In this document: one piece after another, positions 3,929-28,268 of the stretch
How the letters are laid out: every line of letters begins with the position of its first letter
How positions within the stretch are numbered: the first letter of the stretch is position 1
Source: Crenarchaeota archaeon 13_1_40CM_3_52_17
GTDB lineage: Archaea; Thermoproteota; Bathyarchaeia; 40CM-2-53-6
Assembly: GCA_001918745.1 (NCBI GenBank)
Contig: MNGN01000031.1
Location: forward strand, 1-33,650
DNA: 33,650 nt
Direction: 5' to 3'
Translations under genes and position numbers: made by a program
Notes under the pieces: generated by a model
What the model saw: only the letters and a program-made list of their open reading frames with translations
What the model was told of the DNA's origin: nothing
Database searches by the model: none

Positions 3929-4906
3929 TTAGAAAAGGTGCTTGTCGATGATCTTCGCTGGTCCACCAGGATCCGAGACAAGGATATTCTTTGTAATCTT
4001 GCTGAGGTTCCTTCGAACGGATTGGGCAGCATCCCGTGTAGTGTTGACAAACACCGAGGGACCAGTGTCTAGGGAAAACCATGCCGGCAACTCCTCTTCC
4101 GTTCGGAGCCTTCGTACTTCTCTCATGATCTCGATTGAGAGTGGACTGAGAAGAATCAATCCTTCTCTACCAGTCATTGTGACTGCGTGCAAGTTGAGCG
4201 TATCTTCCTCGGCTAACCGTCCAATCGACTCTACGTCCTTTCGTGAGATAGCCCGTTTCATCCGTGGCAGAATACTTCGAAGGTAGGCGAGCCTTGGCTT
4301 GAAGAATGGGGACTTGACAGCGTCAGCGTGAGCTCTATCCGTTTTGATCTCGGATTCTATCGGAACGATTATTGTTCTTAGTTTGATCGAGCGGGCAGAT
4401 GCAAGCTCCTCGGCATAAGAGTGACCGTTTTTGTTCGCGTACCAGATTGAGAAGGCGCCGGCCAAGCTGCGTGACGCAGAACCTGCTCCGAGTCTAACAA
4501 CTTCGGACAACTCGGGCGTCTTGATGTTCAGCTCTAACGCTCTTGCGGTTGCAAGTCCTAGTGCGGCGAATCCTGAGGAGGAGAAGCCTAGGCCCTTACC
4601 CTTGACATCAGGGTTCCGGGATCCTATCTTTGCCTTCAGAGACCCCAGACCAGACAAATGTCGTAGATGGTTGACGACCGCTAACACTCTATCCTGTTCT
4701 ATTCGCGATGGCGACTTGCCGTTTATCCTGATACGATCATCAGTGAACTCTCGGTCGAAATCTACAGTCGTAACGGTTGGAAGAGCTTTCATGTTGACAG
4801 ATATGCTGTCGTGGAATGGTAGCCGCAGTCTCTCGTTTCGCAGGCCGTGGTATTTTACGAGGCCTTGAATCGCGTAGGCTCGAGCGGAAGCCTTCAACGT
4901 CCTAAC
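3929..4906 (-). CDS. mvaD: Diphosphomevalonate (or phosphomevalonate) decarboxylase, GHMP family
   Basis: GLVKYHGLRN, GFSSSGFAALGLA, GSASRSLAGAF and LDTGPSVFV motifs retain the Lys/Arg/Asp catalytic positions. The ORF extends to 4957, but a GTG start near 4906 (VRTLKASARAYA) is more plausible. Confidence 0.85.
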   Translation of the reverse strand, partial: VRTLKASARAYAIQGLVKYHGLRNERLRLPFHDSISVNMKALPTVTTVDFDREFTDDRIRINGKSPSRIEQDRVLAVVNHLRHLSGLGSLKAKIGSRNPDVKGKGLGFSSSGFAALGLATARALELNIKTPELSEVVRLGAGSASRSLAGAFSIWYANKNGHSYAEELASARSIKLRTIIVPIESEIKTDRAHADAVKSPFFKPRLAYLRSILPRMKRAISRKDVESIGRLAEEDTLNLHAVTMTGREGLILLSPLSIEIMREVRRLRTEEELPAWFSLDTGPSVFVNTTRDAAQSVRRNLSKITKNILVSDPGGPAKIIDKHLF

Positions 4907-16627: not shown

Positions 16628-17158
16628 GTGGATCCAAAGATACTTCGAAAAGAAACCATCACCTCAGCACTGATCACAGACGTCTGGACATTGTGGACGA
16701 CTAACGATGGAATCACCAGTTTTCTAGCCCCGAAAGCAAACATCAAGCTCGAAGACAATGGACCCTACGAGATACTCTTCGACCCCGAAGCACCACTAGG
16801 CTTCAGAGGAACAGAAGGCTGCAAAATACTCGGACTCGAACAGATGAAGACTCTATCTGTGGAGTGGAAAGCTCCACCCCAATTCCCAAACGTCCGAAGA
16901 CAAAAGACACGCGTCGACATCTACTTCGAGAGAGTCGAAGCACTAACCAAGGTCCGCGTCGCGCATTCAGGCTGGCAATGGGGAGAAGAATGGGATGAAG
17001 CCTACGAATTCTTCGACCACGCATGGAACCTTGACCTCGCCAGAATGCAACAGAGACTCTCCTCCGGACCGATCGACTGGAGGAAACCCTACGTCCCAGC
17101 CTGGCTTGGACACAGAGCATCGCCAATCCGCGACCACGTCCCAGTCGAAAGGCACTAG
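16628..17158 (+). CDS. SRPBCC/AHSA1-like domain protein
   Basis: Start-domain pattern VWTLWTTNDGITSFLAPKANI...GWQWGEEWDEAYEFFDHAWNLDLARMQQRL. Confidence 0.75.
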   Translation: MDPKILRKETITSALITDVWTLWTTNDGITSFLAPKANIKLEDNGPYEILFDPEAPLGFRGTEGCKILGLEQMKTLSVEWKAPPQFPNVRRQKTRVDIYFERVEALTKVRVAHSGWQWGEEWDEAYEFFDHAWNLDLARMQQRLSSGPIDWRKPYVPAWLGHRASPIRDHVPVERH

Positions 17159-18341: not shown

Positions 18342-18394
18342 GCGAGAACCCTGTTATTATACCACGAAAGTCCAGCGGAGCAGAAGCTCGCAAC

Positions 18395-27587: not shown

Positions 27588-28268
27588 GTGGATTTCGCTA
27601 GTGAACGAGAAAGAATGGTCCGGGCCCTAATTGCCGAAGGACTCCTCAAGACCCGCAAGGTCATTGACTCTATGAGAGCGGTTCCGAGAGAACTGTTCGT
27701 GTCCAGCCAAATGCGACAGTACGCGTACAACGATACTCCATTACCGACGGAGCATGGCCAAACGATCAGTGCGCCACTCGGCTGAACAGCCGGGCGTTAC
27801 ATGGTGGCCATGATGGACGAGGCGTTGGAGCTACGACATGGGATGAGGGTGCTCGAAGTAGGCGCAGGAAGTGGATACCATGCGGCCACCATCGCGGAAA
27901 TTGTACGCGACGAGGGACATGTTTTTGCGATCGAATATCTCGATAAACTGATTGCTTTCGCGAGGAGCAACCTGGATCGAGCAGGATACACCAATCGGGT
28001 CACGCTGGTTCAAGGCGATGGATCATTGGGTTACGCTGAGCGAGCCCCGTACGACAGAATACTCGTCACGGCCGCGGCCCCCAAGATTCCGCCCAATCTG
28101 CTAGAACAACTGAAGCCAGACGGAGCTCTCGTCGTCCCAGTCGGTGGAAGAATGTTCCCACAAGAGCTTATCCGGGTCCGGAAGAAGCCTGATGGAACCT
28201 TGGATCGGGATTCCCTGGGAGGAGTTGCATTCGTGCCCCTCATCGGGAAATATGGCTTCAGCGACTAA
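27588..28268 (+). CDS. pcm: Protein-L-isoaspartate O-methyltransferase, predicted join(27588..27777,27799..28268)
   Basis: Exon 1 ...NDTPLPTEHGQTISAP + exon 2 (H)MVAMMDEALELRHGMRVLEVGAGSGYHAATIAEI...GGVAFVPLIGKYGFSD. The joined ORF is 660 nt (219 aa). Confidence 0.9.
27778..27798 (+). other. Candidate BHB intron within pcm mRNA (21 nt, contains in-frame TGA)
   Basis: tcggctgaacagccgggcgtt. Central helix CGCC 27772-27775 / GGCG 27793-27796; bulges 27776-27778 AC^U and 27797-27799 UU^A; inner stem CGGCU/AGCCG with GAAC loop; outer pairs G-C, U-A, G-U. Confidence 0.87.

Follow-up and report, generated by a model that had tools for sequence, protein, structure and literature searches.

The window analysed here, a 33,650-nucleotide stretch of DNA, belongs to a 1.78-Mb draft genome of the Bathyarchaeia and contains pcm, the gene for protein-L-isoaspartate O-methyltransferase (PCMT), which is split by 21 nucleotides. 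The parts of the gene are as follows.

27588 to 27777, + strand: pcm exon 1, comprising codons 1-63 and base C of a His codon; the GTG start at 27588 is assumed
27778 to 27798, + strand: putative 21-nt bulge-helix-bulge (BHB) intron, tcggctgaacagccgggcgtt, with an in-frame TGA at 27783-27785 and homologous introns in more than 110 genomes
27799 to 28268, + strand: pcm exon 2, comprising bases AC of the His codon, then MVAMMDEALE... up to the stop
Junction peptide of spliced pcm, predicted: GQTISAPHMVAMMDEALELR

The initial annotation described two open reading frames in the same frame around a 21-nt insert with a TGA, and both the coordinates and the sequence were confirmed exactly. The exon-1 frame (27588-27785) ends at this TGA, and exon 2 begins at 27799, its first ATG lying at 27801. 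The intron lies in phase 1, inside the His codon (C^AC) of the active-site motif ISAP-H-MV. Its removal in silico reproduced the sequence ISAPHMVAMM that the same annotation had derived, and the resulting product is a full-length PCMT with an end-to-end match whose junction is gapless in alignment with the solved enzymes 2yxe (ISAIHMVGMM) and 1jg1 (VSAPHMVAIM). Substitutions in the two exons are mainly at third positions or synonymous. A search of the family genomes with the spliced protein found no second full-length pcm.

Predicted RNA fold at the pcm joints

The fold predicted across both exon-intron joints consists of the following elements.

27772 to 27775, + strand: central helix, 5' strand CGCC; exonic, in the Ala-Pro codons GCG CCA, with compensatory CACC/GGTG variants elsewhere
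27776 to 27778, + strand: 5' bulge AC^T, cut after 27777
27779 to 27783, + strand: inner stem, 5' strand CGGCU; covariation seen in each of the four pairs counted
27784 to 27787, + strand: GAAC loop of the intron hairpin
27788 to 27792, + strand: inner stem, 3' strand AGCCG
27793 to 27796, + strand: central helix, 3' strand GGCG; intronic
27797 to 27799, + strand: 3' bulge TT^A, cut after 27798

The architecture initially proposed, a BHB with a 4-bp central helix, 3-nt bulges and an inner stem, is retained, but its strict form is not. Judged by its predicted pairing, the pcm element is a relaxed BHB of central and inner helix that lacks the stable outer helix of the strict motif, and it is classed as relaxed because this outer, exonic helix is weak. 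In the window the outer helix is GUG/CAU; many relatives have only one sure pair, and the second outer pair is broken in 8 of 18 loci. No clear preference for Ser codons that would favour outer-helix pairing was observed. With an outer helix that many members have in weak or broken form, the pcm site would not be expected to be cut by an archaeal splicing endonuclease (EndA, the tRNA-splicing enzyme) of strict specificity.

BHB-like sites of equal stringency number six on the window's strand (33.6 kb) versus 1-11 per shuffled window, and the local fold has a z-score of −1.44. The structural criterion alone is thus within chance, and the fold z-score and motif counts were rejected as proof of an intron. 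For the same reason, the frequency of BHB-like motifs by chance, the original statement that structure and sequence choose the cuts independently was somewhat too strong: both agree on the cuts, but it is the comparative evidence that decides. What exceeds chance is the cut register that restores the conserved His, together with the recurrence of the element, with covarying helices, across more than 110 genomes.

Distribution and covariation among relatives

An alignment of pcm from sister genomes, which the initial annotation had suggested as a check for presence or absence of the intron, was extended from the family to the phylum. At the family level, a search with the spliced protein placed an intron at the identical codon in 19 of 21 genomes; the two exceptions are G016, in which the contig begins within pcm, and G020, in which the copy is intronless. 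Named relatives that share the intron are deposited as Candidatus Bathyarchaeota. Among the introns of relatives are those at 4274-4293 of VBAX01000072.1, at 18358-18377 of VBAY01000101.1 and, on the minus strand, at 16708-16729 of DAFH01000073.1. Intron lengths in the family are 20, 21, 22 and 26 nt, and the intron of G037 has 30 nt; applying the EndA rule, by which the cut follows base 2 of the bulge, rebuilds His from C and AC each time. The 4-bp central helix and the two 3-nt bulges are found at the joints in all 20 rows of the family-level comparison.

Two of these loci have peculiarities of their own. The 30-nt intron of G037 (L059) lies on a 3.8-kb contig (C178) placed in family f6, whose other members carry a different type of pcm that lacks the intron; in the pcm tree this gene groups within family f9 on a long branch, and either the contig is misbinned or the gene was transferred, as seems likely. 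In G008 (L054, C121:7500-8600) the intron is present and about 28 residues after MVAI are seemingly missing, through either a real deletion or an assembly fault.

At the class level, a covariance model built from 20 loci matched 148 of 257 genomes (E ≤ 0.05), 112 with intron-length matches and 36 with intronless ones (45-48 nt, at the same exon site); the remaining 109 genomes, in which pcm is missing or divergent, gave no match and were left unscored. The model marked one place per class genome and no similar intron in other genes, where a dissimilar one would escape it; G111 and G158 have two places each, both pcm-like. Among the 104 class loci that were fetched and aligned, intron lengths span 20-48 nt and are indifferent to the reading frame (46, 31 and 27 loci by length modulo 3), and excision according to the EndA rule brings back SAPHM in every one. 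The central helix reads CGCC/GGCG in 99 loci and CACC/GGTG in three, with one mismatch and one G-U; four standard pairs are formed in 103 of the 104, the exception being one GACG variant. A search of 398 genomes of the phylum added six carriers outside the class (G298, G305, G284, G291, G263 and G262), all with the BHB core and a restored SAPHM. Four of the six, from family f34, have the central helix CACC/GGTG. All other matches outside the class are 45 nt long and intronless.

A separate scan of 377 kb (the window and ~343 kb of the same genome) for BHB sites that join two open frames returned 61 weak candidates and was non-discriminating; among the 45 of these 61 that were listed, the known pcm and cbf5 introns are absent.

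Both RNA helices show compensatory change. Across the two, 99.0% of cells are paired, compared with at most 37% in slid controls; the alignment used for this count was fitted to the model structure, and the stems pair equally well when strings are matched directly in the unaligned sequences. Double-change cells number 119 versus 30.4 ± 12.8 after shuffling, a value reached in none of 500 shuffles, and double changes occur in five of the eight pairs. The Ala codon within the central helix is GCG in 104 and GCA in seven of the 111 intron-bearing genes, whereas intronless pcm has GCA 12, GCG 8, GCT 7 and GCC 5 times at the corresponding position. This restriction, among sequences related by descent, points to a constraint on the exon at the RNA level.

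The reading frame provides a further line of evidence. The intron shifts the frame in 73 of the 104 class loci. An in-frame stop is present in all 31 introns whose length is a multiple of three, versus 8.3 (maximum 17) in shuffled introns, a comparison that ignores the relatedness of the loci. Many of these stops are one inherited TGA in the stem, and several other positions also occur. Translation of the intron codons as protein in relatives, the outcome named at the outset as contrary to an intron, is impossible in all of them because every intron either frameshifts or holds an in-frame stop. Selection for an in-frame stop, acting against translation of unspliced mRNA, is a plausible reading of this pattern.

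Mapped onto a tree built from 155 pcm proteins, presence or absence of the intron requires 11 changes (at least 3 of them forced) versus 38.5 when shuffled. Intronless genes nest within intron-bearing clades (family f10, with f12 adjacent), with deep nodes weakly supported, and this nesting suggests an early gain followed by repeated loss. The pcm intron is probably ancestral to much of the Bathyarchaeia and some neighbouring classes, with several losses, and transfer of pcm possibly contributed to its distribution.

Splicing machinery and known introns

A gene for EndA alpha (L060:1216-1785) lies 13 kb downstream of pcm on the same contig. Its product is closest to the catalytic subunits of A. 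pernix (3p1z/3ajv) and S. tokodaii (2cv8), keeps Tyr, His and Lys at the presumed catalytic positions, and has a KP-containing stretch where the crenarchaea-specific loop presumably sits. The second EndA subunit (L061) is divergent and structural, without the catalytic Tyr-His-Lys. The EndA of the window's genome is of the crenarchaeal alpha2beta2 type. Relaxed BHBs are cut efficiently only by alpha2beta2 and epsilon2 EndAs (PMC6379350), and the weak outer helix at pcm fits the specificity of the former. Two EndA genes are found in most family and class genomes, including most near-complete genomes of the class, and their number does not distinguish lineages with the pcm intron from those that lack it.

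The RtcB ligase gene is partly assembled, its N-terminal part lying at a contig end (L234, G000:C18:43092 onward). The gene is interrupted after YDIN by an apparent intein (CLSGDSRVLHDLGY...), probably a true one, within which the contig ends. Several tRNA genes of this genome carry introns, and at some of the tRNA loci (L222, L224-L230) these apparently lie outside the anticodon loop, as D-loop inserts of ~20 nt. The ~13-kb spacing of pcm and EndA alpha on one contig recurs in many family genomes (G000:C38 and relatives) and is probably plain synteny. An ACT-domain regulator gene near EndA alpha (L060:2243-2793) has a one-base frameshift at a T5 run (...KTIF / SSLEYTGP...), for which an error in sequencing may be responsible.

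A cbf5 intron of 19-23 nt, with a BHB and located between bases 1 and 2 of the catalytic Asp codon, was found in all 21 family genomes, at the following loci.

L239 (G000:C35:15500-16800): cbf5 of the window's genome
L236-L238 and L240-L256: cbf5 of 20 family relatives

The cbf5 pre-mRNA intron of Desulfurococcales and Sulfolobales was reportedly described by Watanabe in 2002, and the present loci extend its range from these orders to the Bathyarchaeia. As a known intron at a known site, in the same genome as the pcm intron, it serves as a positive control. The pcm and cbf5 introns have in common a BHB-like motif, usually relaxed, a cut between the second and third bulge base, phase 1, a key codon, lineage-specific losses and a tie to hetero-oligomeric EndA. 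Their sizes are comparable (16-44 nt in crenarchaeal cbf5, 20-48 nt in pcm). The two differ in host gene and in lineage, the pcm intron being spread over more than 110 genomes of Bathyarchaeia and neighbouring classes, and in the kind of evidence: the pcm intron is predicted from sequence, whereas splicing of the crenarchaeal cbf5 intron was shown experimentally in several species (Yokobori 2009, PMC2738675). A misidentified cbf5 intron was rejected, as the host is pcm and the true cbf5 intron is separate in the same genomes.

With the BHB introns of archaeal tRNA and rRNA, the pcm intron shares the motif and the predicted enzymes, EndA and a ligase; unlike them, it sits in the coding region of an mRNA, where codons limit the outer helix. 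Group I and group II self-splicing introns have a ribozyme core of hundreds of nucleotides and were ruled out for an insert of 20-48 nt. In Haloferax volcanii, EndA cuts a BHB in the 5' UTR of the HVO_1309 mRNA (PMC7714728), an mRNA substrate of the kind predicted for pcm, but one in an untranslated leader, whereas that of pcm interrupts the reading frame.

Competing explanations and meaning of the intron

A BHB intron in pcm explains the data far better than any alternative, and the probability that the 21-nt insert represents an archaeal pre-mRNA intron with a relaxed BHB, cut by EndA and followed by ligation of the exons, is put at about 0.95. The pcm transcript would fold into the relaxed BHB spanning both joints, and an alpha2beta2 EndA would cut both 3-nt bulges, in each case after the second base. 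Joining of the exons by RtcB, or by a ligase equivalent to it, would then rebuild the His codon of SAPHM, and the excised 21-nt piece would be discarded. An unspliced message would yield only a 65-residue fragment, so splicing would be needed for a functional enzyme.

The strongest competitor, itself improbable, is a split gene whose two polypeptides assemble, with exon 2 re-initiated at the ATG of SAP-H-M. This ATG directly follows the insert, and an upstream GGYG loosely resembles a ribosome-binding site. However, the break would hit a highly conserved motif, and the pairing of the insert with exon 1, the compensatory changes, the restricted Ala codon and the constant C + AC His would be left unexplained. 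Slightly less probable still is a cis-acting site for EndA-dependent decay, at which cutting without ligation lowers pcm expression. Conservation of the EndA site, the stops that many introns hold in the exon-1 frame and the cutting of the Haloferax leader (PMC7714728) are in its favour; without ligation, however, the sole pcm would never be full-length, yet both exons are conserved. Such decay could be an additional role beside splicing.

Translational bypass or frameshifting, in which the ribosome skips the hairpin, is very improbable. Known bypass elements do combine a short hairpin with an in-frame stop, as seen here, but no matched take-off and landing codons are present, and length and loop vary freely. 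TAC, AAC or GAC precedes the ATG in most loci, and bypass could not insert the conserved His because its codon arises only by joining C to AC. A pseudogene or a sequencing or assembly error, conceivable in draft, metagenome-derived data for a gene that is intact apart from its in-frame stop, is refuted by conservation, since the interruption recurs in more than 110 separately assembled genomes with covariation and with both exons conserved.

To our knowledge, the only coding-sequence intron with good support in archaea since 2002 has been that of cbf5. The pcm intron bears out the initial expectation of a notable new protein-coding case, cbf5 being the only coding-sequence BHB intron reported in the open-licence literature. 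Apart from the 5'-UTR case that it describes itself, a study from 2020 names cbf5 as the sole mRNA example on record (PMC7714728), and for introns in protein-coding genes a 2025 paper on EndA structure cites the cbf5 work only (PMC12397907). Earlier predictions of putative introns in further protein genes are cited in PMC2738675. No report combining isoaspartyl, intron and BHB was found in the open-licence literature, and earlier notice elsewhere is possible; its titles and abstracts report no mRNA introns in Bathyarchaeota or Bathyarchaeia.

After cbf5, pcm would thus be only the second family of archaeal protein genes for which there is strong evidence of an EndA-type intron that is both ancient and conserved. 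A broader proposal is more tentative, and we consider it somewhat less probable than its opposite: that EndA introns in protein genes, such as those of pcm and cbf5 within single genomes, are general, old and largely unannotated in Bathyarchaeia and their relatives, and that the stop-codon selection in pcm serves as a prokaryotic safeguard, or as splicing-dependent control, that keeps unspliced message from being translated. With a second gene affected, class-wide and beyond, tRNA-type splicing of mRNA would be no oddity of cbf5, which raises the question of how splicing outpaces coupled translation. In a major uncultured class, gene callers would break pcm into two genes or cut it short, and the pcm introns would provide a large natural data set for intron gain and loss in archaea.
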